Part shown: positions 1,230-59,389 of the stretch, piece after piece
Layout: each line of letters opens with the position of its first letter
Position numbering within the stretch: position 1 is the first letter of the stretch
Source: Phycicoccus sp. Root101
Lineage (GTDB): Bacteria > Actinomycetota > Actinomycetes > Actinomycetales > Dermatophilaceae
Direction: 5' to 3'
DNA: 64,000 bases
Assembly: GCF_001426245.1 (NCBI RefSeq)
Contig: NZ_LMCM01000005.1
Coordinates: 1-64,000 of the forward strand
Translations under genes and position numbers: made by a program
The notes under the pieces: model-generated
Database searches by the model: none
What the model was told of the DNA's origin: nothing
The model's input: the letters and a program-made list of their open reading frames with translations, nothing else

Positions 1230-1248
1230 AACTTACTGATGGTAAGTT
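1230..1248. promoter_or_regulatory. Probable TetR operator (AACTTAC-N5-GTAAGTT)
   Basis: A perfect 7-bp inverted repeat with a 5-bp centre (TGATG) lies between the divergent TetR and monooxygenase genes and ends 6 bp before the monooxygenase ATG. A second small palindrome, TACCG-C-CGGTA at 1220-1230, abuts it. No Shine-Dalgarno sequence is visible before the ATG at 1255, so that message may be leaderless, and repressor binding here would block it. Fourteen of the 19 bases recur at 59371-59389. Confidence 0.75.
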
Positions 1249-1254
1249 GCCTTC

Positions 1255-2745
1255 ATGGCCACTCCCCACCACCGGGTCGTCATCGTCGGCACCGGATTCT
1301 CAGGGCTCGGTATGGCGGTCCGGCTCGCCCAGCGCGGCGAGGACTTCGCCGTCCTCGAGCGGGCGGACGACGTGGGCGGCACCTGGCGCGACAACCGCTA
1401 CCCGGGCTGTGCCTGCGACGTGCCGTCCCGCCTGTACAGCTTCTCCTTCGACCAGAAGCCGGACTGGAGCCGCGACTACGCGACGGCCGACGAGATCTGG
1501 GGCTACCTGCGCGGGGTCGCCGACCGGTACGGCCTGCGCGACCGGATCACCTTCGGCGCCGACCTCGTGGCGGCCGAGTACGACACAGAGCGGGAGCACT
1601 GGGCGCTGACCGCGGCGGACGGGCGACGCTGGACCGCGGACGCCCTCGTCCTCGGGGTCGGTGCCCTGCACGAGCCTGCCCGTCCCGACATCCCCGGCCT
1701 GGACGACTTCGCCGGTGCGGTCATGCACACGGCGCAGTGGCCCGAGCGCGACGACCTGGACGGCCGACGCGTCGCGGTCGTCGGCACCGGTGCCAGCTCC
1801 GTGCAGCTCGTGCCCGAGCTCGCGCCACGGGCAGGGCACACCACGGTGTTCCAGCGCACCCCGGCGTGGACCCTCCCCAAGCGCGACCTGCCGTGGAGCG
1901 CCCGGCGCAAGACGGCCTTCCGTCGGCACCCGGGTCTGCAGCGGGCGGTGCGCTGGCTCACGTACTGGCGGATGGAGGCGCAGGCGCCGTTGTTCGTGCG
2001 GTTCCCCGTCATCGCCCGGGTGGCCGAGCGCATCGCGCGACGGGAGCTCGCGAAGTCGGTGCGCGACCCGCAGGTCCGGGCCGCCCTCACCCCCGACTAC
2101 ACGTTGGGCTGCAAGCGGATCCTGCTCTCCAGCACCTACTGGCCGGCCTTCGACCGCGACGACGTCACCCTCGTGACCGACCCCATCGAGCGGATCGAGC
2201 CGCAGGCGGTCGTCACCGCGGGCGGAGCCCGGCACGAGGTGGACGCGATCGTCCTCGGCACCGGGTTCTCGCTCACCGGCAGCTACGACCGCATGGGCAT
2301 CCGTGGGCTCGGGGGTCGCACCCTCGACGAGGCGTGGTCGCAGGGCGCGCACAGCCACCTCGGCATCACCGTCGCCGGGTTCCCCGAGCTCTACCTCCTG
2401 CTCGGGCCCAACACCGGGCTCGGCCACAGCTCGGTCGTCATGATGACCGAGTTCGCGAGCCGCTACATCCTGCAGGGACTCGACCGTGCCCATCGCGGTG
2501 CGCGCGTGACGACCGAGGCCGCGCAGGACGCCTTCACCGAGGAGATGCGCCGCAGGTCGCGCCACACCGTCTGGGCGACCGGCTGCAAGAGCTGGTACCT
2601 CGACCGGTTCGGCCACAACACCGCGCTCTGGCCCGGCTCGACCATCGCCTACTGGTGGCGCACACGGACGATGGACGACTCCGTGTTCGAGCCGGTCAGA
2701 GCAGAAACCGCCCGACGTCCCACGAAGGAATCCCTTGATGCGTAA
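1255..2745 (+). CDS. FAD-dependent monooxygenase, Baeyer-Villiger (type I) class
   Basis: 496 residues. The N-terminal FAD-binding motif is GTGFSG (G12-x-G14-x2-G17). The Baeyer-Villiger fingerprint FxGxxxHxxxW is present as F152-A-G154-AVM-H158-TAQ-W162, and a second dinucleotide motif (VVGTGASS) follows for NADPH. By family knowledge such enzymes insert oxygen next to a ketone to give an ester or lactone; the substrate is unknown. The gene overlaps the SDR gene by 8 bp. The FMO-SDR pair recalls the mycobacterial mymA arrangement. An SDR that oxidises an alcohol to a ketone would supply the monooxygenase, which is an inference from the pairing. Confidence 0.9.
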   Translation: MATPHHRVVIVGTGFSGLGMAVRLAQRGEDFAVLERADDVGGTWRDNRYPGCACDVPSRLYSFSFDQKPDWSRDYATADEIWGYLRGVADRYGLRDRITFGADLVAAEYDTEREHWALTAADGRRWTADALVLGVGALHEPARPDIPGLDDFAGAVMHTAQWPERDDLDGRRVAVVGTGASSVQLVPELAPRAGHTTVFQRTPAWTLPKRDLPWSARRKTAFRRHPGLQRAVRWLTYWRMEAQAPLFVRFPVIARVAERIARRELAKSVRDPQVRAALTPDYTLGCKRILLSSTYWPAFDRDDVTLVTDPIERIEPQAVVTAGGARHEVDAIVLGTGFSLTGSYDRMGIRGLGGRTLDEAWSQGAHSHLGITVAGFPELYLLLGPNTGLGHSSVVMMTEFASRYILQGLDRAHRGARVTTEAAQDAFTEEMRRRSRHTVWATGCKSWYLDRFGHNTALWPGSTIAYWWRTRTMDDSVFEPVRAETARRPTKESLDA

Positions 2746-3571
2746 GCCGTTCCAGCCCAAGGTCAGCATCGTCACCGGAGGCGCCTCCGGCATCGGCAAG
2801 GCCATCGCCGCGGAGCTCGTCGGTCGGGGCAGCCACGTCGTGCTGGCCGACCTCGACCTCGCGGGAGCCGAGGCGACGGCCGCCGAGCTCGGTCCGTGGT
2901 GCTCCGCCGTCGCCCTGGACGTGGCCGACGCGGCCGCCGTCCGGCAGGTCGTGCAGGACGTCGTCGCCGAGCACGGCCGCCTCGACGTGATGGTCAACAA
3001 CGCCGGCATCGGCCTGGGCGGCCTCCTCGAGGAGCTCGACCAGCGGCACTGGGACAAGGCCATCGACGTCAACCTGCGCGGCGTCATCAACGGCGTCACG
3101 GCGGCCTACGAGGTGATGCGCGTGCAGCGCAGCGGCCACATCCTCAACACCGCCTCACTGGCCGGCCTCATCCCGGCACCGTCGATGCTGCCGTACACGA
3201 CGACCAAGCACGCCGTGGTCGGGCTCTCGACGGCCCTGCGTGCCGAGGCCGCGTCGCTGGGCATCCAGGTCAGCGTGCTCTGCCCCGGTTTCGTCGACAC
3301 CCCGCTGCTCGACTCGATGTACGAGGCGCCGGCGAGCTTCGGCGGCAGCAGCGTCCGGTCGCGGGTCAGGATGCTGCAGCCGCGGTTCCTCACGGCCGAG
3401 CTCACGGCCAGGCGTGGCGTCGACGGGCTCGCGGCCAACAAGGCCGTCATCCCGGTCGGGGCCATGGCGCACGTGACGTGGCGCGGCCTGCGGTACGTCC
3501 CGGTCGTGACGCGGGCGGTCATCCAGCTGCAGGCCAGCGGCGCCCGGCGACTCGCGTCCCGGGGGCGCTGA
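2738..3571 (+). CDS. Short-chain dehydrogenase/reductase (SDR)
   Basis: 277 residues from the ATG at 2738, which has AAGGA at 2725-2729 eight bases upstream. A TTG immediately before it (2735) is less likely. Classical SDR features are visible: TGGASGIG cofactor loop at 13-20, NNAG in the middle, and the catalytic YxxxK as Y153-TTT-K157 preceded by a Ser. The family oxidises or reduces alcohol/ketone pairs with NAD(P)(H). The start overlaps the stop of the monooxygenase gene, so the two are translationally coupled and probably act on the same compound. Confidence 0.9.
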   Translation: MRKPFQPKVSIVTGGASGIGKAIAAELVGRGSHVVLADLDLAGAEATAAELGPWCSAVALDVADAAAVRQVVQDVVAEHGRLDVMVNNAGIGLGGLLEELDQRHWDKAIDVNLRGVINGVTAAYEVMRVQRSGHILNTASLAGLIPAPSMLPYTTTKHAVVGLSTALRAEAASLGIQVSVLCPGFVDTPLLDSMYEAPASFGGSSVRSRVRMLQPRFLTAELTARRGVDGLAANKAVIPVGAMAHVTWRGLRYVPVVTRAVIQLQASGARRLASRGR

Positions 3572-3590
3572 GCCGCGGCATACTGGGCCC

Positions 3591-3668
3591 GCCCCCGTGG
3601 CCCAACTGGCAGAGGCAGGCGACTTAAAATCGCCACAGGTGCGGGTTCGACCCCCGTCGGGGGCACCA
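3591..3668 (+). tRNA. tRNA with UAA anticodon (Leu by anticodon; short variable loop)
   Basis: A complete cloverleaf can be folded. The acceptor stem is GCCCCCG/CGGGGGC, the anticodon stem GGCGA/TCGCC closes the loop CTTAAAA (anticodon TAA), the T arm carries TTCGACC, and ACCA is encoded at 3665-3668. The D arm (GCCC...GGCAGAGGC) looks leucine-like with a short stem. The variable region is only about six bases (ACAGGT), whereas bacterial tRNA-Leu normally has a long variable arm. Decoding as leucine is therefore by anticodon only. Confidence 0.85.
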
Positions 3669-3706
3669 GTGCACCAACCCCGTGCGCCGCGTGGCCCCGA
3701 GGTCGC

Positions 3707-4825
3707 TCAGAGGTCGACGTCCACCCACAGCGCCGCGTGGTCCGATGCGGCGTCCTGCTCGCGGGTCAGGGTCGGGTACATCTCCCAGCGCCGTGAGGCG
3801 GTCCAGACGCCCTTACGGAAGATGCCACCGGCCGTGATCGACGTGAAGACGGCCGGCGAGCACAGGATGTAGTCGATCTTGTTGGCCGTCCGACCGGTCG
3901 TGTACGTGCCGGGGTAGCCGCCGTCGTCGAACGAGGGGTGCGCCGAGACGTCCCTGAGGTCCGACGGAGCGCTCGACGTGCCGACGAGCAGGGGTGCCAG
4001 GGGAGCCGAGCCCGGGAAGTCGTTGAGGTCGCCGAGGACGACCACGTGCTCGTGTCCCTCGGCCCGTCGCTGCCGGTAGATCTCCGCCACGCGCTCGGCC
4101 TGCCGACGTCGGCGGGTGTCCGACTCCGATGCCTTGCCGTACCCCTTGGACTTGAAGTGGTTGACCAGGACGAGGAGCCGCCCACCGCCGGGCAGGCTGA
4201 CGGAGTACTCCGGGCAGTCCCGCCCGAAGATCGGGCCTGCGAGGTCGGCGTCGTCGACGTGGCTGACGATGCCTTCGATCGGGTGGTCCCCGCGCGTCAT
4301 GATGCCGACGTCGATGCCCCGGTCGTCGTTGCCGTCGACGAGCATGACGTGGCCGTAGATGCGGTCGCTGACGGGGCGCAGCAGGTCGACGTTGAAGCGT
4401 TGCAGGGCGATGCGGCTCTCCGCCTCGACCACGCCCAGCACGTCCGCGGCCAGGTCGTGCACCACCAGCGCGGTGTGGTGGGTCGCGAGCTCGGTGACGG
4501 CTTGGGTCCGCAGCTCCAGCCAGCCGACCCAGTCGCGGCGTCCCTCGGCGACCACCGTGAGTCCGCCGGCGCGAGGCCGGCTGAGCAGCCGTCCGCGGTT
4601 CTGCCGGAGCGTGACGTAGGTCCCCGAGTCGGACTTCTCGAGGCCGAGGTCGACGAGCAGCAGGGCGATGAGCGCCTTGTCGTCCGCGGTGTACGTCGGC
4701 CGCTGCAGCAGCCGGGTCAGGCGCGCGTACTTCTCCAGCAGGGTGCGGTGCGTCGACCAGTCGTCGCCGCCCAGGAGCCTGGCTCGATCGAAGAGGTTCT
4801 CCACGTTGAAGCTCGCGATCCGCAC
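3707..4825 (-). CDS. Endonuclease/exonuclease/phosphatase (EEP) family protein
   Basis: 372 residues if started at the GTG at 4825. The N-terminal SFNVENLF, the central NHFKSKG, the GDLNDFPGS block and the C-terminal SDHAALW are the metal-binding and catalytic motifs of the DNase I/EEP fold. The fold cleaves phosphodiester or phosphomonoester bonds in nucleic acids, inositol phosphates or lipids; the substrate here is unknown. No signal peptide is visible. The GGAGG upstream is only one or two bases from the GTG, so the start is uncertain. It is divergent from the Bax-inhibitor gene. Confidence 0.8.
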   Translation of the reverse strand: MRIASFNVENLFDRARLLGGDDWSTHRTLLEKYARLTRLLQRPTYTADDKALIALLLVDLGLEKSDSGTYVTLRQNRGRLLSRPRAGGLTVVAEGRRDWVGWLELRTQAVTELATHHTALVVHDLAADVLGVVEAESRIALQRFNVDLLRPVSDRIYGHVMLVDGNDDRGIDVGIMTRGDHPIEGIVSHVDDADLAGPIFGRDCPEYSVSLPGGGRLLVLVNHFKSKGYGKASESDTRRRRQAERVAEIYRQRRAEGHEHVVVLGDLNDFPGSAPLAPLLVGTSSAPSDLRDVSAHPSFDDGGYPGTYTTGRTANKIDYILCSPAVFTSITAGGIFRKGVWTASRRWEMYPTLTREQDAASDHAALWVDVDL

Positions 4826-4990
4826 ACCTCCAGCGTCCTCCGCGCCGGCCGCGCGGCGCCATACCCGGCAGGTGAAATCTCCGGCGCACCCACAGGTGGC
4901 GTTGCACGGGAACTCTGGGGTGGGTCCCACGCGTAGTCTGGGGTGAGCGGCCGACCGCAGGGCCGCACGACGCCCCTCAAGGAGCAACGC

Positions 4991-5842
4991 ATGGCCAGCA
5001 ACCCGGTGTTCGACCGGATCGAGAAGGAATCCCGTCAGGGCTACGCAGGCTTCGGCCGCGCGCCCCAGCAGCCGAGCGCCCCCGCGGGCGCGGGCCCGAT
5101 GACGCCCCAGCAGCTGCAGGACCTCTACAACCAGCCGGCCGCCGGCCCGGCGCAGATGCGCCGCCTCACCATCGACGACGTCGTCATGAAGACGACGGGC
5201 CTGTTCGCCATCGTCGTGGTCGTGGCTGCGATCGCCTGGCAGCTCACGCCCTCGATCGGGATGCCGCTGCTGCTCGGTGGCATCGTCGCCACCCTGGTGC
5301 TCGGCCTGGTCATCGCGTTCAGGAAGACCGTGAGCGTCCCGCTCATCGTCGCGTATGCCGTGTTCGAGGGCCTGCTCGTCGGCTCCATCAGCTACGTCTA
5401 CGCCACGGCCTTCGACGCGCCCGGCACCCCGGTGTTCCGCGGGATCGTCGCCCAGGCGGTGCTGGCGACGCTGTCCGTGTTCGCGGGCATGCTCATCGCC
5501 TACAAGACCGGCATCATCAAGGTCACCGAGAAGTTCCGCCGCATCGTCACCATGGCGGTCATCGGCTACGCGATCTTCGCGCTGATCAACCTCGTCTACG
5601 CCCTCGTCACCAACACCGCGTTCGGCATCGGCGGCTCCGGCCCGCTCGGCATCGGCATCTCGCTGTTCGCCATCGGCCTCGCCTCCGCCATGCTGGCCGT
5701 CGACTTCGACTCGATCGACCGCGCCATCGCGGCCGGTGCGCCGGAGAAGTACTCGTGGCTGCTCGCGCACGGGCTCATCGTGACGCTCGTGTGGCTGTAC
5801 CTCGAGATCCTGCGGCTGCTCGGTCGCCTTCGCAACAACTAG
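4991..5842 (+). CDS. Bax inhibitor-1/YccA family integral membrane protein
   Basis: 283 residues starting at ATG 4991, with AAGGAG about 7 bp upstream. The first ~60 residues are polar and Gln/Pro/Ala-rich. About seven hydrophobic helices follow, with the family pattern YAVFEGLLVGSIS and a C-terminal membrane stretch ending LYLEILRLLGRLRNN. Family members are membrane proteins implicated in ion (Ca2+/H+) leak and stress responses; the exact role in actinobacteria is not established. The next gene starts 9 bp downstream on the same strand. Confidence 0.9.
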   Translation: MASNPVFDRIEKESRQGYAGFGRAPQQPSAPAGAGPMTPQQLQDLYNQPAAGPAQMRRLTIDDVVMKTTGLFAIVVVVAAIAWQLTPSIGMPLLLGGIVATLVLGLVIAFRKTVSVPLIVAYAVFEGLLVGSISYVYATAFDAPGTPVFRGIVAQAVLATLSVFAGMLIAYKTGIIKVTEKFRRIVTMAVIGYAIFALINLVYALVTNTAFGIGGSGPLGIGISLFAIGLASAMLAVDFDSIDRAIAAGAPEKYSWLLAHGLIVTLVWLYLEILRLLGRLRNN

Positions 5843-5851
5843 CATTCGGCT

Positions 5852-6136
5852 GTGCCCCCGAGATCACCTGTCCCGCAGGAGGTCTCGACACAACTCCAGC
5901 GCGTGGTCCGACGGTGGCATCAGCTGCCGTTGGACCACGCGCTTCGTTGTGTCCCGACGGTGCGGGCCCTGCTCGACGACCTCGCGGGTGACGACGCCCC
6001 GCTGCTGCCAGACCTCGGACCCGGCGCCCTGATGGACCAGCTGACAGTCCTCGTCCACGATGCCTGCGCAGCAGGAGACCCCGGAGCCGACGACCTGTCG
6101 TCGCGGCTCCGGGGCCTCCTGGCGGACCTCAGCTGA
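5852..6136 (+). CDS. Small conserved hypothetical protein
   Basis: 94 residues from a GTG nine bases after the Bax-inhibitor stop. The protein is soluble and mostly helical by eye, Leu/Asp/Ala-rich, with no motif I recognise. Its last 8 bases overlap the end of the convergent thiolase gene. The close spacing suggests co-transcription with the upstream membrane-protein gene. Function unknown. Confidence 0.6.
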   Translation: MPPRSPVPQEVSTQLQRVVRRWHQLPLDHALRCVPTVRALLDDLAGDDAPLLPDLGPGALMDQLTVLVHDACAAGDPGADDLSSRLRGLLADLS

Positions 6137-7352
6137 GGCGCTCGTAGATGATGGCCATGCCCTGGCCGCCACCGACGCACATCGTCTCGAGGCCGAACTG
6201 GCCGTCACGCGCGGACAACCCGTTGAGCAGGGTCGTCGTGATGCGGGCGCCCGTGGACCCGAACGGGTGGCCGAGGGCGATGGCCCCACCGTGGACGTTG
6301 AGCTTGTCGAAGTCCATGCCCAGCTCGTCCGCCGAGGGCAGCACCTGCGCGGCGAACGCCTCGTTGATCTCGTAGAGGTCCATGTCCCCGATGGTCATGC
6401 CGGCCCGGGCCAGCGCCTGGCGCGAGGCCTCGACGGGGCCGAGGCCCATGATCTCGGGCGAGAGGCCGGAGACGCCGGTCGACACGACGCGGGCGAGGGG
6501 GGTGAGCCCCAGCTCGGCGGCCCTGGTGTCGCTCATGACGACGACCGCCGCGGCGCCGTCGTTGAGGGGGCAGCAGTTGCCGGCCGTGATGGTGCCCTGC
6601 TCGCGGAACACGGGGTTGAGTCCCTGCAGCGCCTCGAGGGTGACGCCGGAGCGGGGACCGTCGTCCTTGCTGACGACGGTGCCGTCGGGCAGCGTGACCG
6701 GGGCGATCTCGCGCTCGAAGAACCCGTCGGCGATGGCCTTCTCCGCACGGTTCTGCGACGAGACGCCCCACTCGTCCTGGCGCTCCCGGCTGATGCCCTT
6801 GAGGGTCGCGACGTTCTCGGCGGTCTGGCCCATGGACAGGTAGACGTCGGGGACGAGGCCCTGCTCGCGGGGGTCGGTCCAGGTCCCGTTCGACTTCGCG
6901 ATGGCTTCGCTGCGCTCCTGCGCGGGCTTGAACGCGGGGTTCTGGTCGTCGCCCGCCGAGCCGCCCGCACCGGCCCAGTTGGTGTACTGCGAGACGCACT
7001 CGACGCCACCGGAGAGGAAGATGTCGCCCTCGCCGGCCTTGATCGCGTGGTAGGCCATGCGGGTCGTCTGCACCGAGGAGGCGCAGAACCGGTTGATCGT
7101 CGAGCCCGGCAGGCCGTCGAACCCGGCGAGCACGGAGATGACGCGCGCCATGTTGGAGCCGTGGCGGCCGGACGGCTCGGCGCAGCCCCAGTAGAGGTCC
7201 TCGACCAGGGTCGGGTCGAGCTCGGGGATCTTGGCCAGCGCGGCACGGATGACCTGCACCGACAGGTCGTCGGGGCGGATCTCCTTGAGCGAGCCCTTGA
7301 ACGCCCGGCCGATCGGCGTGCGGGCGGTGGAGACGATGACGGCTTCGGTCAC
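6129..7352 (-). CDS. Acetyl-CoA C-acyltransferase (thiolase)
   Basis: 407 residues from a GTG at 7352 preceded by GAGGAGG at 8 bp. The nucleophilic cysteine is C90 in NRFCASS. The C-terminal GGAIALGHPFGSTG and CVGGGQGMA blocks carry the catalytic His and second Cys. It cleaves 3-ketoacyl-CoA or condenses acetyl-CoA units, acting in fatty-acid beta-oxidation in the cytoplasm. Gene order (thiolase, SGNH hydrolase, then cbs) resembles mycobacterial fadA3-Rv1075c-Rv1077. The exact chain-length specificity cannot be read from the sequence. Confidence 0.93.
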   Translation of the reverse strand: MTEAVIVSTARTPIGRAFKGSLKEIRPDDLSVQVIRAALAKIPELDPTLVEDLYWGCAEPSGRHGSNMARVISVLAGFDGLPGSTINRFCASSVQTTRMAYHAIKAGEGDIFLSGGVECVSQYTNWAGAGGSAGDDQNPAFKPAQERSEAIAKSNGTWTDPREQGLVPDVYLSMGQTAENVATLKGISRERQDEWGVSSQNRAEKAIADGFFEREIAPVTLPDGTVVSKDDGPRSGVTLEALQGLNPVFREQGTITAGNCCPLNDGAAAVVVMSDTRAAELGLTPLARVVSTGVSGLSPEIMGLGPVEASRQALARAGMTIGDMDLYEINEAFAAQVLPSADELGMDFDKLNVHGGAIALGHPFGSTGARITTTLLNGLSARDGQFGLETMCVGGGQGMAIIYERLS

Positions 7353-7396
7353 GGGGGTTCCTCCTCGTCGAGGGCGACCGCCGGGTGAGCGGTCGC

Positions 7397-8557
7397 TTAG
7401 TCAGCCTCGATGGTATGCCGTGCGGCCTCGTCCGGGCGCGGGTCACCCGGTGTGGCCTTGCTCTCGCCGGGCGCGTCAGGGGAGGGCGCGTCGCCCGACG
7501 GCGGCACGTCGCCGGTCCCGGTCGGGGTGCCGTCGGGGGAGGGGCTGTCGTCCTGGCGGTCGGGGACGGGGTCGTGCGGGCGTCGCAGCAGCTTGGCCCA
7601 GCGACCACGCGGGCCCCGGGCCTGGCCGGCGATCTGGGTGGCGCTCACCTCCGTGCCGGGGTCGCGCACGGCATACGTGGCCGCGACGGCGACGGGGCCG
7701 ACGCCCTCGCCGCGCCGGGAGTCGGGCAGCCGGTCGTCGTCGCCCTCCCCGGACCACACGCCGAGCGCGGCGTACACGCTGGGCAGGAGGGCGGCCGCGG
7801 CGCGGGCGTACCCGGCCGGGGACGGGTGGAAGCGGTCGGCGCTGAACATCTCCTTGGGGCGCTCGTAGAACTCCGGCCCCAGCAGGTCGCCGAGGGACAC
7901 GGTCCGCCCGCCGGCCTCGACCACCGCGACGGTCTGGGCGGCGGCGAGGTCGCGCGACCAGCGGCGGCCGATGAGGCGCAGCGGCTGGGGGATCGGCTCG
8001 ATGGTGCCGAGGTCCGGGCAGGTGCCGACGACGACCTCGGTGCCGAGTGTGCGCAGCGAGCGCACCACCGTCTCGAGGTGGCGCACCGCGATGGCCTTGT
8101 CGATCCGGTGGGTGACGTCGTTGGCGCCGATCATGATGACGGCGACGTGGGGTCGGGGGACCCGGTCGAGCGCGTTGGCGAGCTGCAGCTCCAGCCCCGA
8201 CGACTCGGAGCCGACGACGGCGGTGTTGGTGAGGCGGACCGGGCGGCCGGTGAGGGCCGAGACGCCGTTGGCGATGATCGCCCCCACGGTCTGGTGGGGG
8301 GTGTCGGCGCCCATCCCCGCCGCGGAGGAGTCGCCGAGCACGATGAGCTCGACCGGCTCGCCGAACCCCGCGCCATACGTGCCGTTGTCGTCGGGTGCGC
8401 CGTCGAAGGGCTGGCCGACGAGCCGTCGGGCGATCCGGGCCTCGACCTTGAGGACGCCGTAGCCGAGCGCGCCGAGGGCGCCGATCCCTGCCGCGAGCCC
8501 GCCACCGCCGTATGCCGCGGTGGCGGCGATCCTGCGTGCCCTGCGTGCCCGACCCAT
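7397..8557 (-). CDS. SGNH/GDSL-family hydrolase with N-terminal hydrophobic segment
   Basis: 386 residues from ATG 8557. AGGAGG is six bases upstream, better placed for this ATG than for the GTG at 8560. An Arg-rich start and a Gly/Ala-rich hydrophobic stretch (residues ~12-35) suggest a membrane anchor or signal. SGNH blocks follow: GDSSAAG (nucleophile Ser), GANDVT (Asn) and DRFHPS (Asp/His). The last ~100 residues are disordered, Pro/Asp/Gly-rich. The family hydrolyses esters or acyl groups on lipids or polysaccharides; the substrate is unknown. It is divergent from cbs. Confidence 0.85.
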   Translation of the reverse strand: MGRARRARRIAATAAYGGGGLAAGIGALGALGYGVLKVEARIARRLVGQPFDGAPDDNGTYGAGFGEPVELIVLGDSSAAGMGADTPHQTVGAIIANGVSALTGRPVRLTNTAVVGSESSGLELQLANALDRVPRPHVAVIMIGANDVTHRIDKAIAVRHLETVVRSLRTLGTEVVVGTCPDLGTIEPIPQPLRLIGRRWSRDLAAAQTVAVVEAGGRTVSLGDLLGPEFYERPKEMFSADRFHPSPAGYARAAAALLPSVYAALGVWSGEGDDDRLPDSRRGEGVGPVAVAATYAVRDPGTEVSATQIAGQARGPRGRWAKLLRRPHDPVPDRQDDSPSPDGTPTGTGDVPPSGDAPSPDAPGESKATPGDPRPDEAARHTIEAD

Positions 8558-8675
8558 CACTGCCCTCCTCGCTCCGTCGACCTCACCGACTGTCCCTCAC
8601 CAACGTCGTGCCTGACCTCAGGGTGCCCCACGAGGCGTGGTCCGGCCTCCCTCAACCGTCTGAGAGGATGAGGCG

Positions 8676-10052
8676 GTGAAGTACGCAGAGCACATCGCCG
8701 ACCTCGTCGGGAACACGCCCCTGGTCAAGCTCAACTCGGTCACCGAGGGCATCTCGGCCACCATTCTCGCGAAGGTCGAGTACCTCAACCCCGGCGGGTC
8801 CGTGAAGGACCGCATCGCGCTGAAGATGATCGAGGCCGCGGAGGCGTCCGGCGAGCTCAAGCCCGGCGGCACCATCGTCGAGCCGACCTCGGGCAACACC
8901 GGTGTCGGGCTGGCCCTCGTCGCGCAGCGCAAGGGCTACAAGTGCGTGTTCGTGTGCCCCGACAAGGTGAGCCAGGACAAGCGCGACGTGCTCAAGGCGT
9001 ATGGCGCCGAGGTCGTGGTGTGCCCGACGGCCGTGGCCCCCGACCACCCCGACTCCTACTACGAGACCTCCGACCGCCTCGTCCGCGAGATCGAGGGTGC
9101 GTGGAAGCCGAACCAGTACGCCAACCAGAACGGCCCCGCCTCGCACTACGAGTCGACCGGGCCCGAGATCTGGAACGACACCGACGGCCGCATCACGCAC
9201 TTCGTGGCCGGCGTGGGCACGGGCGGCACCATCACCGGCACCGGCCGCTACCTGCGTGAGGCCTCGGCCGACCGCGATGGCGGGCGCGTGCGGGTCATCG
9301 GCGCCGACCCGGAGGGTTCGGTCTACTCCGGCGGCACCGGCCGCCCCTACCTGGTCGAGGGTGTCGGCGAGGACTTCTGGCCGACCGCGTACGACCCGTC
9401 GGTGGTCGACGACGTGATCGCCGTGAGCGACGCTGACTCGTTCGAGATGACCCGCCGCCTCGCCAAGGAGGAGGGCCTGCTCGTCGGTGGCTCCTGCGGC
9501 ATGGCGGTCGTCGCGGCCTTGCGTGCGGCCAAGGACCTCCCGGCCGATGCGGTCATGGTGGTGCTGCTGCCCGACAGCGGTCGTGGCTACATGTCGAAGA
9601 TCTTCAACGACGACTGGATGAACTCCTACGGGTTCATGCGCAGCGCGGGGCAGGCCACCGTCGGCGAGGTGCTGCACCAGAAGGCCGGCGACCTGCCCGC
9701 CCTCGTGCACACCCACCCGACCGAGACCGTCCGCGACGCCATCGAGATCCTGCACGAGTACTCGGTGTCGCAGATGCCCGTGGTCGGTGCCGAGCCCCCC
9801 GTCATGGCGGGGGAGGTCGCTGGTTCGGTGAGCGAGCGCGCCCTGCTCGAGGCGCTGTTCAACGGTTCGGCCCACCTGACCGACCCGGTCGAGAAGCACA
9901 TGGAGCCCTCGCTGCCGCTCGTCGGTGCGGGCGAGCCGGTGTCGGTCGCCCGGCACGAGCTCGAGAAGTCGGACGCGATCATGGTGGTCGAGGACGGCAA
10001 GCCGGTCGGGGTGCTGACCCGCGCCGACCTGCTCATCTCCCTCGTCGGCTGA
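8676..10052 (+). CDS. cbs: Cystathionine beta-synthase with two CBS domains
   Basis: 458 residues. The PLP lysine is K44 in GGSVKDR, with SGNTG and a glycine loop GTGGT for phosphate binding. Residues ~340-458 form a pair of CBS domains, the regulatory module typical of this enzyme. It condenses serine and homocysteine to cystathionine (reverse transsulfuration). O-acetylserine-dependent cysteine synthesis is possible for relatives, but the CBS tail argues for Cbs. The start is a GTG in a clear context. metB lies 4.4 kb downstream on the same strand, so both directions of transsulfuration are encoded locally. Confidence 0.93.
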   Translation: MKYAEHIADLVGNTPLVKLNSVTEGISATILAKVEYLNPGGSVKDRIALKMIEAAEASGELKPGGTIVEPTSGNTGVGLALVAQRKGYKCVFVCPDKVSQDKRDVLKAYGAEVVVCPTAVAPDHPDSYYETSDRLVREIEGAWKPNQYANQNGPASHYESTGPEIWNDTDGRITHFVAGVGTGGTITGTGRYLREASADRDGGRVRVIGADPEGSVYSGGTGRPYLVEGVGEDFWPTAYDPSVVDDVIAVSDADSFEMTRRLAKEEGLLVGGSCGMAVVAALRAAKDLPADAVMVVLLPDSGRGYMSKIFNDDWMNSYGFMRSAGQATVGEVLHQKAGDLPALVHTHPTETVRDAIEILHEYSVSQMPVVGAEPPVMAGEVAGSVSERALLEALFNGSAHLTDPVEKHMEPSLPLVGAGEPVSVARHELEKSDAIMVVEDGKPVGVLTRADLLISLVG

Positions 10053-36555: not shown

Positions 36556-37724
36556 CGCCCCCCAACCGCGGACTCATCGGCCTCGGGGTCGGGCTCGCCG
36601 CTGCCGGTGTGGCCACGGCTGCCGGAGTCGCTGCAGGCCGGGTCAACCGTGAGCGCACGGCCCGGCTGTCGGTTCTCGCGCCCGACGGCGTCTACGCCCA
36701 CATGCCCGACCACGAGCTCGCGGTCGTCGCCGACGACGGGGTGCCCCTCCACGTGGAGGTCGACGAGCCGGCCGCCGACGCGGCCGACCCCAAGCACCCC
36801 ACCGTCGTCCTGAGCCACGGCTACACCCTGAGCCTGCGGAGCTGGGTGCTGCAGCGAAAGGCCTTGCAGCGAGCCGGGTACCGCGTCGTGCTGTGGGACC
36901 AGCGCAGCCACGGCCGGTCCGAGGTCGCCGAGGGTGACTCGTGCACGATCGAGCAGCTCGGCCGCGACCTGCACCGGGTCATCGAGGAGGCAGCCCCCGA
37001 GGGGCCGCTCGTCCTCGTGGGCCACTCCATGGGTGGCATGACGGTGATGTCGATGGCCGACCAGTTCCCCGAGACGGTGCGGCAGCGCGTCATCGCCGCG
37101 GCGTTCGTCGCGACGAGTGCCGGCGGCCAGAACATGGTGACGCTGGGGTTCGGCCAGTTCGTGGGGCGGCTGCTCGGGCGACTGGGGCCGCGGTTCCTCG
37201 CCAGGGTCGGCACCCAGCAGAAGCTGGTCAACACCGCCCGTCGGGTCGGCAGGGACGTCGAGGACCTCATCGTCGACCACTACAGCTTCGCGTCGCCGGT
37301 GGCCCAGCACACGATCCGCTACACCGGCGACATGATCATGGGTACGCCGCTGTCGGTCATGGCCGACTTCCTGCCCACGATCAACGTGCACGACAAGCAG
37401 GCCGCGCTGTCGCACTTCCACGGCATCGAGACGTTGGTGGTCAACGGGATGCAGGACCTGCTCACGCCACCAGACCACTCGGAGGCCATCGTGCGGCTGG
37501 TCCCCGGGGCCGAGCACGTCGTCGTCGAGGACGCCGGCCACATCATCATGCTCGAGCACCCGGAGGTGCTGAACGAGCAGCTCCTCGAGCTCGTGGAGCG
37601 CGGGATGCGTGCCTCAGCCGAGAACGTCGACGTCGGGCGCAAGCCGCGGGTCCGCCGCACCGTCACCGACCTGTCGAAGCGACGCCGGGTCGCGAAGGCT
37701 CGGCGCGGGGGTCGGCGTGCCTGA
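36552..37724 (+). CDS. Alpha/beta hydrolase with N-terminal membrane segment
   Basis: 390 residues, GTG start overlapping the alr stop by 4 bp. A Gly/Ala-rich hydrophobic N-terminus (residues ~7-28) may anchor it. The alpha/beta hydrolase fold shows HGYTLSLRSW (oxyanion region), WDQRSHGRS, the nucleophile elbow GHSMGG (S159), and late DAGHIIMLEHPE with the catalytic His. The C-terminus is Arg/Lys-rich. Substrate unknown. The coupling to alr and tsaE suggests constitutive housekeeping expression. Confidence 0.88.
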   Translation: MTPPNRGLIGLGVGLAAAGVATAAGVAAGRVNRERTARLSVLAPDGVYAHMPDHELAVVADDGVPLHVEVDEPAADAADPKHPTVVLSHGYTLSLRSWVLQRKALQRAGYRVVLWDQRSHGRSEVAEGDSCTIEQLGRDLHRVIEEAAPEGPLVLVGHSMGGMTVMSMADQFPETVRQRVIAAAFVATSAGGQNMVTLGFGQFVGRLLGRLGPRFLARVGTQQKLVNTARRVGRDVEDLIVDHYSFASPVAQHTIRYTGDMIMGTPLSVMADFLPTINVHDKQAALSHFHGIETLVVNGMQDLLTPPDHSEAIVRLVPGAEHVVVEDAGHIIMLEHPEVLNEQLLELVERGMRASAENVDVGRKPRVRRTVTDLSKRRRVAKARRGGRRA

Positions 37725-51060: not shown

Positions 51061-51100
51061 CCGAGGCTGACCGGCGCGGGCTCCCTGCGCCATACCTCTC

Positions 51101-51136: not shown

Positions 51137-51187
51137 GCGCGTGCCCGTATGCGGTGGGGCGTTGCGCACACACGCAGCCCAGGGTGC

Positions 51188-51216: not shown

Positions 51217-51224
51217 TCCACGTC

Positions 51225-51761
51225 ATGTCGACGGGACACGTGCTACTCGGGCTGCTGAGCAGGGGGCAGCGACACGGGTACGACCTGAAGCGGGACCATG
51301 ACGAACGGTTCCCCCAGGCGAAACCGTTGGCGTTCGGGGTGGTCTACTCCACCCTCGAGCGACTGCACCGCCGGGGGCTCATCGCGCCCCTGGCGGTGCA
51401 GCGCGTCGACGGGCCGGACCGGACCGCGTACGGGATCACCGACGCAGGACGGGCCGAGCTGGCCCAGTGGCTCGCCACGACCGACGAGCCGTCCGAGCAC
51501 GTGACCAACCCGTTCGCCGTGAAGGTCACGCTCGCCCTGCTGCTCGGCGACGAGGCGGGTGCGGAGGCCTTCCTGCGGGCACAGCGGGCGGCCCACCTCG
51601 TGCGGATGCGCGCGTTCACGACGGCGAAGACGGCGCCCGGGGCGTCGGTGCACGAGGTGCTCGCGGCGGACTACGCGCTGGCGCACCTGGATGCGGACCT
51701 GACGTGGATGGACGCGGCGCTGCGCCGCGTCACCACGCTGAGAGAGGAGCTGGGGGCATGA
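51225..51761 (+). CDS. PadR-family transcriptional regulator
   Basis: 178 residues. The N-terminal winged helix starts GHVLLGLLSRGQRHGYDLKRD and includes GVVYSTLERLHRRGLI; the C-terminal half is a dimerisation helix domain with repeated Leu/Ala heptads. PadR proteins commonly repress adjacent efflux genes. Here the ABC ATPase gene overlaps its stop (ATGA), and the palindrome on its promoter suggests autoregulation of the whole operon. Confidence 0.92.
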   Translation: MSTGHVLLGLLSRGQRHGYDLKRDHDERFPQAKPLAFGVVYSTLERLHRRGLIAPLAVQRVDGPDRTAYGITDAGRAELAQWLATTDEPSEHVTNPFAVKVTLALLLGDEAGAEAFLRAQRAAHLVRMRAFTTAKTAPGASVHEVLAADYALAHLDADLTWMDAALRRVTTLREELGA

Positions 51762-52545
51762 CGGAGGGGGCCATGGACGGGGACGGTGCACGCGAGGTAT
51801 CGCAGGGGATCGGCGGCGAGGGGGACCACACCTGCGCGCCACCGACGACGGTGCTGTCGGCGAGGGGGCTCGAGCTGACCTACGGCCTCACGCCGGCCCT
51901 GCGAGGTGTCGACCTCGACGTCCGGCAAGGTGAGGTCTTGGCCGTGACCGGCCCGTCGGGGTCGGGCAAGTCCTCGCTGCTCCTGTGCCTCGCCGGGGTG
52001 CTGAAGCCGGACATGGGGACCGTGCGGTTCGGCGAGCGAGTCATCAGTGCGGAGTCCGAGAAGGTGCGGTCGCGGCTGCGACGGGAGGAGTTCGGCGTGC
52101 TGTTCCAGTTCGGCCAGCTCGTCGAGGAGCTGCCCGCGGTCGAGAACGTCGCCCTCCCGCTGCTGCTCGGGCGCATGCGGCGGGCTGACGCGCTGGACCG
52201 GGCCCAGACCTGGCTGCACCGGTTCGGCGTGGGAGACGTCGCCGACCACCGACCCGGCCAGATGTCGGGCGGCCAGGCGCAGCGCGTCGCCGTCGCGCGG
52301 GCCATGGTGACCGAGCCCGCGGTGCTGTTCGCCGACGAACCCACCGGGGCGCTGGACTCCATGGCGGCCGAGCAGGTGATGGGCGCCCTCGTCGAGGCTG
52401 CGCGCGACCACGGGACCACCGTGGTGCTGGTGACCCACGAGGCGCGGATCGCCGCCTACTGCGACCGCGACGTCGAGGTCCGCGACGGGCGGCTGTCGGG
52501 GACCTCGCTGGACGTCGTCGGCGCCACCCGTCTGGAGCTGCGCCG

Positions 52546-52549
<4 letters not shown>
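51758..52549 (+). CDS. ABC transporter ATP-binding protein (MacB/LolD-like)
   Basis: 263 residues; the first ~30 are a polar extension. Walker A GPSGSGKSS near residue 65, Q-loop FQFGQ, signature MSGGQAQRVAVARAM, Walker B AVLFADEPTG and the H-loop VLVTHE are all intact. The type pairs with FtsX-like permeases, the next gene, starting 4 bp within its end. Probable role: export or release of a small hydrophobic compound or lipid, inferred from PadR control. Confidence 0.93.
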
Positions 52550-53977
<1,428 letters not shown>

Positions 53978-54052
53978 CCCGAGGCGCGATGGGTATGGCG
54001 CGTGCGCCCTCCCGGTGCGACGCTGGGCGCAGCAGCGCACAGCGAGGTGGCC

Positions 54053-55588
54053 GTGGCGGAGCACGTCGTGGACCGGCCGAGCTTCGACGAGTACGTCGTC
54101 GCCCGGGGTGGTGACCTGCTCCGGACCGCCTGGCTGCTCGCCGGGGACGACCGCGGCGCCCAGCGGCTCGCCCGCACCGCCCTGGCCCGGGCCTGGCCGC
54201 AGTGGTCGCAGCTGGCCGAGCACGGTGCCGGGTCGTACGACTCCGACCTGCGGCGGTTCCTCGTGCAGGCCCACCTCAGACAGCACCGGCACCCGGCCCG
54301 CGACGACGTCGACGACTCCCGATCGCCTGCGGCCCGGGGTGGTTCGGGTGGTCCGAGTGGTTCGGGTGGTCCGGACGAGCGGGTCAGGGTCTCGCGGGGA
54401 CTCGAGGTGCTGGACTCGCTGACCAACGTCGAACGCGCCGTGGTCGTGCTCGTGCTGTTCGACGGGCTGGGGGAGGGGCACGTCGCCGACCTGCTCGACG
54501 ACGACCTCGGCTCCGTCCGGCGCCATCTGCTGCACGCGCTGGCCCTCGTCCGCGACCGGTTCGGGCTCGACGAGCGCGGGATGCGCGGACTGTTGGAGTC
54601 GCTGGCCCCCGACGACCCGCCGGTCGAGGCGCTGCTCGCCAAGGAGGTGGCCGGTGCGGCTCGCTGGCGGGGGCTGCGCGGGTGGGTGTTCGCGCTGGCC
54701 GCCGTGGCGGTGGCCGCCCTGGTCGTGGGGCTCGTGACGCGCCCGCAGGCCGGGGGCGTCCGACCGCCGCCCTCCATCCCCCGCCTGGTGCCCGCGGCGC
54801 TCGCCTGCGGGTCGTCGCTCGGTCCTCCCGCCCTGCCCCGACCCGTCGAGCCACCGCTCAGCGCGCACTACGTCGCCGTGCTCGTCTGCGCGAGGACCGA
54901 TGCGGCCTCGGTCTGGAGCGGTCCGCTCCCGCCGGACGTCCCGGTGAGCGACCCCACGGCGATCGACTCCCTGGTGCTGGCACCGCAGGGCAGCGGACCG
55001 GCCTGCCCCGGCCTGCCCCGTGGTCCTGCGTACCGGCTCCTGCTCCTCGGCCGCGACGGCACCACGACGACCTGGTCCAACGAGGCGCTGGCCTGCAACG
55101 GGTGGCCGGCCCTGTCCCAGGTGTTCGTCGCCGCGGCCGAGCAGAGCGCCGCGGGCACCCCGCCGGACGCCGACTTCCTCGGGTGCCCGACGACCCTGGG
55201 TCGACAGGTCGACCGGGACGGGGCCGGGCTGGGCCTGCAGAAGGGGACAGTCCTCGTCGAGGCCACCGCCTGCCTGCACCCGCTCGCCGAGGCCAGGCCA
55301 CCCGGCATACCGAGCTTCCGGGCGGTCCGCGCCAACGTGCTGGGCGGCCCGACCGTGGCCCAGCTGAACGCCGACCTGGCCCGGTCCGGGTCGAGGCGCA
55401 CCGGCAAGGGCGACTGCGCCTCGGGGCCGCAGCGCTACGTGATCAGGGCGCGCACCGACACCGGGCGGCTGGTCGAGCTCAGCAGCATCTGCGGTCACGA
55501 GTTCGCGGTCGACGGGCACCTGCGCGACACCTGGCGGGTCAGCGGTGAGACGACGAGCATGCTGCGGGCCCTGCTCGTCGCGAACTAG
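54053..55588 (+). CDS. Sigma-factor-like domain fused to transmembrane and extracytoplasmic domain
   Basis: 511 residues from GTG 54053 (SD AGCGAGG upstream; a GTG at 54047 is an alternative). Residues ~10-50 resemble sigma-70 region 2 of ECF type (SFDEYVVARGGDLLRTAWLL), and ~120-165 resemble region 4 (LTNVERAVVVLVLFDGLGEGHVADLL), both degenerate. A Gly/Ser linker encoded by an 18-bp repeat sits between them. One transmembrane helix (~211-231) is followed by ~280 extracytoplasmic residues containing several cysteines. It may be a membrane-tethered sigma-like sensor; activity is uncertain. Confidence 0.75.
   Translation: MAEHVVDRPSFDEYVVARGGDLLRTAWLLAGDDRGAQRLARTALARAWPQWSQLAEHGAGSYDSDLRRFLVQAHLRQHRHPARDDVDDSRSPAARGGSGGPSGSGGPDERVRVSRGLEVLDSLTNVERAVVVLVLFDGLGEGHVADLLDDDLGSVRRHLLHALALVRDRFGLDERGMRGLLESLAPDDPPVEALLAKEVAGAARWRGLRGWVFALAAVAVAALVVGLVTRPQAGGVRPPPSIPRLVPAALACGSSLGPPALPRPVEPPLSAHYVAVLVCARTDAASVWSGPLPPDVPVSDPTAIDSLVLAPQGSGPACPGLPRGPAYRLLLLGRDGTTTTWSNEALACNGWPALSQVFVAAAEQSAAGTPPDADFLGCPTTLGRQVDRDGAGLGLQKGTVLVEATACLHPLAEARPPGIPSFRAVRANVLGGPTVAQLNADLARSGSRRTGKGDCASGPQRYVIRARTDTGRLVELSSICGHEFAVDGHLRDTWRVSGETTSMLRALLVAN
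54339..54374 (+). repeat. Two 18-bp tandem repeats encoding a Gly/Ser linker
   Basis: Two near-identical 18-bp copies (54339-54356 and 54357-54374; 17 of 18 bases identical) encode the Gly/Ser/Pro linker between the two sigma-like regions. Confidence 0.8.
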
Positions 55589-55594
55589 CGAGCC

Positions 55595-55819
55595 TCAGCC
55601 GCCGGCGACCACGCGGATCGTCTGGTCGGCGAAGGTGACGCTCTGCCCGGGACGGACCTGGGCGCCACGACGGGTCTCGCGCGAGCCGTCGACCGACACC
55701 TCGCCGAGCTCGATCACCGACCGCGCCATCGCCCCGTCGTCGACGACGCCGGCGAGCTTGAGCAGCTGACCCAGCCTGATGGACTCGTCGCGGATGGGGA
55801 CCTCGTGCTCGGCGTTCAC
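55595..55819 (-). CDS. S4-domain RNA-binding protein (YbcJ-like)
   Basis: 74 residues from GTG 55819, essentially a single S4 domain (IRLGQLLKLAGVVDDGAMARSVIELGEVSVDG). Such small proteins bind structured RNA; the family (YbcJ/YaaA-like) is not well characterised. It runs convergent to the sigma-like gene with 6 bp between stops and lies just downstream of the WhiB gene. Confidence 0.85.
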   Translation of the reverse strand: MNAEHEVPIRDESIRLGQLLKLAGVVDDGAMARSVIELGEVSVDGSRETRRGAQVRPGQSVTFADQTIRVVAGG

Positions 55820-55838
55820 GAGGGGAGTCTACGAGCGC

Positions 55839-57894
<2,056 letters not shown>

Positions 57895-58164
57895 CCCTGG
57901 TACGGCTGGGGCTGGTGGTGTCCAGGGTGGTGTCCAGCCGGGGGTACGCCATCCGGCTGAGCCGCTGCCTCGACCCGCGCTCCTAGTCTGCTTCCACGAC
58001 CCATCCCCCACGGTCGCAGCTGGGCTGTGCCCGTGCTGACGTCGTCGGGCGACGCCTTGCGCGTGCCCGACGATCCCAGATGCCCCGTCGCCGGACACCC
58101 CCCTCACCCGGCGGCGGGGCATCGCCCTTTTCGCCCCTGCGTCCGCGGCCGATAGCCTTGCGCG
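57895..58164. other. 270-bp intergenic region between guaB and guaB3
   Basis: Contains a 9-bp hairpin (58042-58050 with 58065-58073) followed by the 16-bp terminator stem at 58079-58123. No supported coding region. A 12-base direct repeat (GGTGGTGTCCAG) occurs at about 57918-57944. Confidence 0.7.
58079..58123 (+). terminator. guaB terminator
   Basis: 16-bp stem with one T-G wobble (58079-58094 and 58108-58123), followed by GCCCTTTT. This is the most canonical terminator in the window. Confidence 0.9.
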
Positions 58165-59286
58165 GTGACTGAGATCGAGATCGGCCGAGGCAAGCGCGGC
58201 CGTCGGGCCTACTCCTTCGACGACATCGCCGTCGTCCCGTCCCGCCGCACGCGCGACCCCGAGGAGGTGTCGGTGGGCTGGCAGATCGATGCCTACCACT
58301 TCGACATCCCGGTCATCGCCGCTCCGATGGACTCGGTGATGAGTCCCGAGTCGGCCATCAAGCTCGGCAACCTCGGCGGCCTGCCGGTGCTCGACCTCGA
58401 GGGCCTGTGGACGCGGTACGACGACCCGACGCCGCTGCTCGCCGAGATCGCGACGCTGGACCCCGCGACCGCGACCGCGCGGATGCAGGAGATCTACGCG
58501 GCCGAGATCCAGCCCGAGCTCATCGTCGAACGGCTCAAGCAGGTCCGTGCGGCCGGCGTGACCGTGGCGGGGGCGCTCAGCCCGCAGCGCACGCAGCAGT
58601 TCTGGAAGCACGTCGTCGACGCCGGGGTCGACCTGTTCGTCATCCGTGGCACCACGGTGAGTGCCGAGCACGTCTCCGGCCGTGCCGAGCCGCTCAACCT
58701 CAAGCGCTTCATCTACGAGCTGGACGTGCCCGTCATCGTCGGCGGCGCCGCGTCGTACACGGCGGCGCTGCACCTCATGCGCACCGGTGCCGCCGGTGTC
58801 CTCGTCGGCTTCGGTGGGGGAGCGGCGCACACCACGCGGCGCACCCTGGGCATCCACGCCCCGATGGCCAGCGCCATCGCCGACGTGGCCGCGGCGCGTC
58901 GTGACTACCTCGACGAGTCCGGCGGCCGCTACGTGCACGTCATCGCCGACGGAGGCATGGGCGACAGCGGTGACATCGTCAAGGCCGTGGCCTGTGGCGC
59001 CGACGCGGTCATGCTCGGTGCGGCGCTCGCGCGGGCGACCGACGCACCCGGTCGCGGGCTGCACTGGGGTCCCGAGGCGCACCACCAGGAGCTGCCGCGC
59101 GGCTCGCGCGTGGAGGTGGGCGCCGTGGCCCCGCTCGAGCAGATCCTGTTCGGGCCCGGCCGCACCGCCACCGGCCAGACGAACCTCATCGGTGCCCTGC
59201 GCCGCGCGATGGCGACGACGGGCTACTCCGACCTCAAGGAGTTCCAGCGCGTCGAGGTCGTCGTGGCCCCCTACCAGGCCACCTGA
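58165..59286 (+). CDS. guaB3: GuaB3-type IMP dehydrogenase-related protein
   Basis: 373 residues from GTG 58165. The TIM barrel is GuaB-like (SFDDIAVVPSRRTRD, APMDSVMSPESAIKL), but there are no CBS domains and the catalytic cysteine loop is replaced by GGGAAHTTR. This is the conserved actinobacterial/cyanobacterial GuaB3 group, which by family knowledge may act as a GMP reductase-like or other purine enzyme. It lies directly after guaB, as in mycobacteria. Confidence 0.9.
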   Translation: MTEIEIGRGKRGRRAYSFDDIAVVPSRRTRDPEEVSVGWQIDAYHFDIPVIAAPMDSVMSPESAIKLGNLGGLPVLDLEGLWTRYDDPTPLLAEIATLDPATATARMQEIYAAEIQPELIVERLKQVRAAGVTVAGALSPQRTQQFWKHVVDAGVDLFVIRGTTVSAEHVSGRAEPLNLKRFIYELDVPVIVGGAASYTAALHLMRTGAAGVLVGFGGGAAHTTRRTLGIHAPMASAIADVAAARRDYLDESGGRYVHVIADGGMGDSGDIVKAVACGADAVMLGAALARATDAPGRGLHWGPEAHHQELPRGSRVEVGAVAPLEQILFGPGRTATGQTNLIGALRRAMATTGYSDLKEFQRVEVVVAPYQAT

Positions 59287-59301
59287 GCCCCGCCCGACGC
59301 C

Positions 59302-59345
59302 ACGACGGCGGCCCCACCGGAGACCTCCGGGAGGGCCGCCGTCGT
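59302..59345 (+). terminator. guaB3 terminator
   Basis: 13-bp perfect stem (59302-59314 with 59333-59345) with an inner CCGGAG/CTCCGG stem. Confidence 0.85.
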
Positions 59346-59370
59346 CGTCACGGGACCGTGAGATCCCGCT

Positions 59371-59389
59371 AACTTACTACTGGTAATAA
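59371..59389. promoter_or_regulatory. Second copy of the TetR operator-like motif
   Basis: AACTTACTACTGGTAATAA matches the palindrome at 1230-1248 at 14 of 19 positions, including AACTTACT and TGGTAA. It lies 26 bp before the aldehyde dehydrogenase ATG. This suggests regulation by the TetR protein encoded at 531-1202, or a close paralogue elsewhere. Confidence 0.6.

Follow-up and report, generated by a model that had tools for sequence, protein, structure and literature searches.

Analysis of a 64,000-nucleotide stretch of DNA from Phycicoccus sp. Root101 (contig NZ_LMCM01000005.1, positions 1 to 64,000; the whole stretch is called the window) showed that one palindrome, AACTTAC-N5-GTAAGTT, recurs in front of two operons of paired oxidoreductases. 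We consider it quite probable that these two sites, O1 and O2, are operators of a single TetR-family protein, encoded at 534-1202, which would repress both operons so that they come on jointly. The best reading of the sequence is a small TetR regulon whose regulator stands nearest to the acyl-CoA-sensing FasR, not to EthR. Computation supports this through the conservation of the sites and of the gene partners, through a joint loss seen in one species, and through the regulator's likeness to FasR. The strain, with a genome of 4.38 Mb in 12 contigs, is treated here as a member of the genus Pedococcus. The features that carry the argument are:

534-1202, minus strand: TetR-family regulator, FasR-like; GTG start at 1202; TetR_N 68 bits, TetR_C_46 38 bits
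1230-1248, no strand: candidate operator O1 (site 1), AACTTACTGATGGTAAGTT, a perfect AACTTAC-N5-GTAAGTT palindrome (0 mismatches) between the tetR and monooxygenase genes
1255-2745, plus strand: type I Baeyer-Villiger monooxygenase, FMO-like, with fingerprint and Rossmann motifs; nearest chain phenylacetone monooxygenase
2738-3571, plus strand: short-chain dehydrogenase (SDR); adh_short 179 bits; TGxxxGxG and YxxxK motifs; start overlaps the monooxygenase stop
58165-59286: GuaB3, the gene preceding the aldehyde dehydrogenase-GMC pair
59371-59389, no strand: candidate operator O2 (site 2), AACTTACTACTGGTAATAA, which probably overlies the -35 region upstream of the aldehyde dehydrogenase gene
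59416-61008, plus strand: aldehyde dehydrogenase of the succinic-semialdehyde-dehydrogenase (GabD2-type) family; Aldedh 467 bits
61005-62723, plus strand: GMC oxidoreductase, cholesterol-oxidase-like (ChoD-like); GMC_oxred N and C; start overlaps the dehydrogenase stop

Examination of the window confirmed the starting point of an earlier reading made without database searches (the sequence-only reading), which had reported the perfect palindrome and a copy with 14 of 19 letters identical, placed 26 bp before the aldehyde dehydrogenase; the ATG of that gene is at 59416. O2 has three mismatches to the 14 specified palindrome bases. Chance expectation was gauged with a reversed palindrome pattern, with dinucleotide shuffles (n = 100, window) and with first-order Markov resampling of 120-bp upstream regions. 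At three mismatches or fewer, O1 and O2 were the sole matches in the window, against a mean of 0.01 in the shuffles, which never yielded two; resamples of the region upstream of the aldehyde dehydrogenase gene reached three mismatches in 0.1% of cases. Across the strain's own genome, the core TTACTNNTGGTAA occurred at the O1 and O2 places only (reversed control, one match), so the many unrelated sites that the sequence-only reading had named as evidence against itself were absent. The full pattern at three mismatches or fewer was found at four places, namely O1, O2 and two with unrelated centres, versus nine for the reversed control. An O2-grade match taken singly is thus not significant genome-wide, and since site 2 was unconvincing by itself, relatives had to decide.

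Twelve genomes were compared, 11 of the genus Pedococcus with P. cremeus as the twelfth. A TetR ortholog was present in 10 of the 11 genus genomes, at 69-86% identity excluding self, and missing from G009. Site 1 adjoins all ten orthologs, perfect at nine and with two mismatches in G004; P. cremeus likewise has the TetR gene with site 1 (one mismatch) and the monooxygenase-SDR pair, so that site 1 occurs in 11/11 TetR-bearing genomes. The monooxygenase is found in 9/11 genus genomes and is absent from G004 and G009. G004 has lost both monooxygenase and SDR but retains TetR and all four sites (1-4), which have 2, 3, 2 and 4 mismatches respectively. A tRNA-Leu (taa) directly follows the SDR gene in the window (3591-3668); its G004 counterpart comes after the tetR operator. 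Site 2, with two or three mismatches, lies 26-27 bp before the aldehyde dehydrogenase start in nine of the 11 genus genomes and in P. cremeus (10/12), a distance that is fixed though the flanking bases vary, and resampled 120-bp upstream regions equalled the observed match in these ten in ≤0.33% of cases. Where TetR is present, the palindrome therefore stands at both promoters, in 11/11 genomes for site 1 and in 10/11 for site 2, with the remaining copy (G005) displaced.

In G009, which has neither TetR nor monooxygenase, site 2 is a remnant with five mismatches. This genome lies inside the genus in the GMC tree (support 99/96; 16 of 37 genomes with a match, plus P. cremeus as a partial row) and, with less support (86/89), in the aldehyde dehydrogenase tree (21 rows; G005 by residues 1-349 only). 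Since it is nested within the genus, the absence of TetR and monooxygenase together with the decayed site 2 amounts to a joint loss. Regulator loss and site 2 decay coincide; this is one event, with no statistic attached. In the aldehyde dehydrogenase tree P. cremeus, which has site 2, falls next to the genus (97/95) and outside the 11. The claim that one operator motif links both operons thus held: both places are conserved in the genus, and site 2 has decayed where TetR is missing. As a separate observation, the decayed G009 site (L101, upstream of 1441) can also be read as CTAC-N6-GTAA, the spacing of genera without a window-type TetR, so another regulator is possible there.

Genome-wide counts agreed with a genus-level signal. 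In a wider scan (n = 58, the 11 genus genomes and 47 others from the family and order), the palindrome at two mismatches or fewer occurred at 24 places in the genus versus two for the control, and at 28 places versus 35 in the 47 others. The palindrome is enriched within the genus and at background level outside it. A motif model built from 30 sites and searched over the 11 genus genomes gave 45 rows representing 34 distinct places in 10 of them (none in G009), comprising the 30 training sites and four new ones; in the strain's own genome it found O1 and O2 only. Two of the new places precede GDSL-lipase-like genes (G002, G005), a third is the displaced copy in G005, and the fourth, near a peroxiredoxin-like gene of G002 named by eye, is unexplained.

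Four main target promoters emerged: tetR/monooxygenase, aldehyde dehydrogenase-GMC, an FA_hydroxylase-family gene and an alpha/beta hydrolase. Site counts for the last two cover the 11 genus genomes. In P. bigeumensis (G006) the site is present at four promoters. The FA_hydroxylase-family gene is present in 6/11 and has a site at two mismatches or fewer in all six; the alpha/beta hydrolase ortholog is present in 9/11 and has a site at four mismatches or fewer in five of the nine. The GDSL-lipase-like gene is a possible fifth target. It stands with its operator-like site beside an aminopeptidase-like gene, named by eye (L279 2070-2988 and L164 ~1501-2426), and its family is Pfam-confirmed for the G005 gene only. 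The window encodes a second alpha/beta hydrolase (36717-37562) that resembles the regulon member at ~40%; the genus conserves this gene, but without the operator.

To the TetR-monooxygenase arrangement itself, wider relatives added a clear pattern. The best 80 TetR relatives among the matches listed in named actinomycete genomes were taken, a sample rich in Lentzea whose counts are not independent. A divergent monooxygenase accompanies 68 of them, and the palindrome is present at three mismatches or fewer in 64/68; the 12 without a divergent monooxygenase gave 0/12 at five mismatches or fewer. The reversed pattern never did better than five mismatches at these 80 relatives. When a further match was looked for at a distance of 8-25 bp in the 68 regions between TetR and monooxygenase genes, the best one lay at 14 bp in 61, and 57 of these had five mismatches or fewer. 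Alignment A3 took in 22 of the 80 loci and the window; L174, L205, L214, L226 and L232 were dropped, as their coordinates run across a stop codon. A stricter pattern, applied to 13 of these genomes, matched 16 places against none for the control: 11 at the TetR divergon, four directly upstream of an SDR gene (Saccharothrix, Umezawaea, Lentzea and Prauserella; 31-33% like the window SDR) and one elsewhere.

In two genomes of another family (G039, G057), TetR faces a divergently transcribed operon that encodes an alpha/beta hydrolase, a monooxygenase and an SDR; the intervening palindromes have one mismatch, and the SDR is 47-53% identical to the window's. Genes joined in a single operon there thus lie scattered in several Pedococcus genomes, yet have the operator in common. 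In the same two genomes a luciferase-like (LLM) oxidoreductase gene and an NYN-domain gene also flank an operator-like site (L278 1788-1806, L113 2035-2053), with Pfam applied to one gene per kind. The coupled oxidoreductases described for each operon by the sequence-only reading stand as gene content, and for the monooxygenase and SDR the TetR-flanked operon of G039 and G057 adds the hydrolase.

The aldehyde dehydrogenase promoter behaved differently outside the genus. The N5 site at four mismatches or fewer was absent from all 11 aldehyde dehydrogenase genes in 10 non-Pedococcus genomes with TetR relatives (0/11; five of these genes have an adjoining GMC gene, and some may not be orthologs). 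At five mismatches or fewer it preceded the gene in none of 15 family and order genomes; these are 15 of 20 regions, L286, L289, L290, L299 and L302 being excluded for want of an aldehyde dehydrogenase match. An old pan-actinobacterial link between monooxygenase and aldehyde dehydrogenase was rejected on these counts, and the single pathway proposed earlier for both operons found no wider support. A different palindrome, TTAC-N6-GTAA, occurs at the aldehyde dehydrogenase in 12 of the same 15 genomes (one mismatch of eight bases or fewer, often over the start codon, with no shuffle control), and similar sites were seen by eye in several distant genomes. It lies at the start codon or promoter in L284, L285, L287, L288, L291, L293, L295, L297 and others. 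The strict form TTACTCTNNAGTAA, sought to find an owner regulator, matched in one of 39 genomes, at the aldehyde dehydrogenase promoter itself.

The window TetR was compared with solved chains, scoring 76 bits against 3f1b, 66 against Mycobacterium tuberculosis FasR, 55 against Mce3R and 44 against EthR. In a predicted-fold search with its structure model (pLDDT 85, pTM 0.77), 3f1b and FasR chains took ranks 1-6, and the first EthR chain came at rank 44. Orthology with EthR was rejected on both counts. Against the FasR family model NF053731 the protein scored 81 bits, under the cut-off of 330. FasR is described as a sensor of long acyl-CoAs and an activator of fas-acpS (PMC7382501). Because FasR senses long acyl-CoAs, an acyl-type ligand is, by analogy, a fair guess for the window TetR.

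Sequence features of the enzymes were examined in the same way. Type I Baeyer-Villiger monooxygenases carry a fingerprint, FxGxxxHxxxW, between two Rossmann motifs. The window monooxygenase has this fingerprint as FAGAVMHTAQWP at residue 152, with GxGxxG-type motifs GTGFSG at residue 12 and GTGASS at residue 177. Its nearest solved chain is phenylacetone monooxygenase (265 bits), with cyclohexanone monooxygenases also among the nearest. Enzymes of this type use NADPH to turn ketones into esters or lactones, and the window protein may do the same. For the aldehyde dehydrogenase, the score against the succinic semialdehyde dehydrogenase model NF006916 exceeds the cut-off (781 bits, cut-off 521). 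The GMC protein was not accepted as a cholesterol oxidase, scoring 528 bits against the NF058674 cut-off of 850, and a sterol substrate, one of the options in the sequence-only reading, found no support.

The positions of the sites relative to the genes suggest how they may act. The tetR and monooxygenase genes are separated by 52 bp, and the following elements were read in the two promoter regions:

1216-1234, no strand: weak second palindrome copy, five mismatches, 14 bp offset from O1
1243-1254, plus strand: putative -10 TAAGTT inside O1, then 6 nt to the monooxygenase ATG, as read from the sequence
59404-59415, plus strand: putative -10 TACGCT, then 6 nt to the aldehyde dehydrogenase ATG, from the sequence and the genus alignment (TAGGCT in several relatives)

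The end of O2 is 14 bp before the putative -10 of the aldehyde dehydrogenase gene. A sigma-70 consensus scan of the O1 region (1150-1300) found no sigma-70-type site. The spacing suggests leaderless transcripts at both operons, with operators positioned to block RNA polymerase.

From these data we infer binding by the TetR protein of 534-1202, repression over activation, the ligand and the chemistry. A TetR dimer would bind AACTTAC-N5-GTAAGTT. Bound at O1, it would mask the -10 region of the monooxygenase and SDR genes while sitting upstream of its own gene, and so repress both; bound at O2, it would repress the aldehyde dehydrogenase-GMC operon by covering the -35 region. TetR would be released by a hydrophobic ligand, which may be a long-chain acyl-CoA or else an oxidised lipid, and the operons would then come on together. 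In the chemistry envisaged, a lipid-like compound would be oxidised, the SDR taking an alcohol to a ketone and the monooxygenase the ketone to an ester or lactone. The alpha/beta hydrolase, co-regulated in some species, may cleave the ester, after which the GMC enzyme and the aldehyde dehydrogenase could turn the freed alcohol into an aldehyde and then an acid.

Recruitment of the aldehyde dehydrogenase-GMC pair to the regulon may date back to the base of Pedococcus (with P. cremeus counted in) or earlier. Since, among the genomes examined, the pair has the N5 site in Pedococcus only and an N6 palindrome often stands there elsewhere, it seems to have changed regulator, and this switch would date from the same point. 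A bolder version, which we offer tentatively and hold to be possible rather than likely, is that a TetR of the FasR lineage senses an acyl-CoA or oxidised lipid and controls a scattered pathway in which membrane or storage lipids are oxidised sub-terminally by the hydroxylase, SDR, monooxygenase, hydrolase, GMC oxidase and aldehyde dehydrogenase. Each promoter would have been given the same 19-bp palindrome, and the old pair of ChoD-like GMC and aldehyde dehydrogenase would have been captured by replacement of an N6 by an N5 operator.

Several observations weigh against one TetR protein repressing both operons. To the surplus of control matches in the strain's own genome and the lack of the N5 site at aldehyde dehydrogenase genes outside Pedococcus is added the asymmetry of O2 (right arm GTAATAA), owing to which its affinity may be reduced. 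In G005, TetR is present, yet the aldehyde dehydrogenase gene has no site: a three-mismatch copy lies just after guaB3 with a penicillin-amidase-family gene inserted between, and the aldehyde dehydrogenase reads in two frames. In the GMC tree the partial row of P. cremeus falls outside the genus and groups with G015, G039 and G057 (98/97). The strain's own genome yielded no FA_hydroxylase ortholog at E 1e-30, and its alpha/beta hydrolase ortholog has no site; its own regulon is therefore without those steps. FasR being an activator, regulation by the window TetR may be of either sign. Finally, the genus genomes are mutually related and their counts are not independent. On the G005 sequence itself (loci L280 1915-4001, with the penicillin amidase, and L100 1471-3055), the aldehyde dehydrogenase match changes frame near residue 331-349, a frameshift of the gene or of the assembly.

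The N6 palindrome raises the alternative that O2 is the operator of another TetR-family protein, a changed form of TTAC-N6-GTAA still bound by that regulator. Its presence in 12/15 family and order genomes favours this, and other TetR proteins are on hand, the strain's own genome having 17 matches to the window TetR, itself included. One spacer base rotates the half-sites by ~34 degrees. The Pedococcus O2, however, has the N5 spacer of O1 and shares with it the outer AAC of the left arm; site 2 decays in the one species that lost the window TetR; and the N5 motif precedes, in 5/9 genomes, the gene of the hydrolase, which in another family shares an operon with the monooxygenase. We regard ownership of O2 by another regulator as unlikely. 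The window TetR could instead bind O2 and activate the aldehyde dehydrogenase-GMC operon, as FasR does fas-acpS, leaving the two operons oppositely regulated. The nearest characterised relative is indeed an activator (PMC7382501), and O2 is upstream of the putative -10 and not on top of it. With its end 14 bp before that -10, though, O2 would lie over the -35 and not upstream of it, and a source on TetR-monooxygenase pairs describes most TetR proteins with short divergent intergenic regions as repressors (PMC3511530). Activation at O2 is, on balance, quite improbable.

That site 2 matches merely by chance within a conserved promoter and is bound by no regulator, as the four real places versus nine control ones at three mismatches might suggest, is very improbable. 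Its distance is fixed in 10/12 genomes amid varying flanks, the motif was not found at the aldehyde dehydrogenase promoter outside the genus, and it has decayed where TetR was lost. Repression of both operons by the one TetR protein remains the preferred reading.

Beyond the regulator, the contig carries one further gene that the sequence-only reading had drawn into the system:

2-505, convergent to tetR: end of an MCE/Mce4_CUP1-type gene; the fragment's Pfam match is below the cut-off, and the full G007 gene is clear

The adjacency of this gene to the TetR gene stands, an MCE gene lying within 1.5 kb of the TetR gene in 7/11 TetR-bearing genomes. It is convergent, and only its end is on the contig. 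In G007 the MCE gene follows a Ppx/GppA phosphatase gene, and an 11.8 kb stretch with the MCE gene and its upstream side has a single four-mismatch match, ~5.8 kb upstream of the MCE gene. A 14.2 kb stretch of G006 had no match at four mismatches or fewer; it contains no MCE gene and so is uninformative on this point. Membership of the MCE gene in the regulon was rejected, given the convergent orientation, the distant match in G007 and the lack of any site there in the genus motif scan. At the contig start, inside this gene, positions 1-54 form a 27-base head-to-tail repeat of which the G007 relative has one copy; it is probably an assembly artefact of the contig end.

With these results, a TetR-monooxygenase pair that is widespread in actinomycetes has a likely operator and several enzymes as partners, and the window TetR appears, from its sites, to control several unlinked promoters in one genus. 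The pair of ChoD-like GMC and GabD2-type proteins gains a testable physiological partner in that genus. The shift from an N6 to an N5 palindrome, together with the decay of the site in the genome that lost the regulator, makes this a possible case of a promoter swapping its regulator. Within the literature covered (titles, abstract beginnings and passages, most subscription papers being outside this scope), no account of this operator, TetR or regulon was found.

Comparison with known systems places the regulon among TetR-monooxygenase divergons. M. tuberculosis FasR is the nearest characterised protein by sequence and predicted fold (TM 0.64-0.68 on the query). The fold alignment has 26-28% identity, however, and the crystallised 25-mer DNA of FasR is by eye without the AACTTAC-N5-GTAAGTT palindrome (PMC7382501). 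EthR-EthA of Mycobacterium shows the same gene arrangement: the TetR gene and that of a type I monooxygenase point away from a short intergenic region that holds the operator, 75 bp long for EthR and 52 bp here (PMC3511530). It differs in that EthR is not the nearest relative of the window TetR and that here the operator is a simple 19-bp palindrome, which relatives often have as two copies spaced by 14 bp and which further promoters share; the EthR operator was not part of the comparison. SCO7222-SCO7223 of Streptomyces coelicolor is likewise a divergent TetR-monooxygenase pair, for which the same source reports several operators and repression (PMC3511530). Its operator, TGGAACGnCGTTCCA, is unrelated to AACTTAC-N5-GTAAGTT. 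AdhD is an alcohol dehydrogenase and VirS an AraC-type regulator. In the mymA operon of M. tuberculosis, the monooxygenase MymA and AdhD are combined in one regulated operon, as the monooxygenase and SDR are here, but that operon has seven genes under the transcriptional regulator VirS, whereas here a TetR protein and two unlinked operons are involved (PMC13234193). TetR-monooxygenase divergons are thus known; what is new here is an operator other than that of SCO7222 and a FasR-like regulator.

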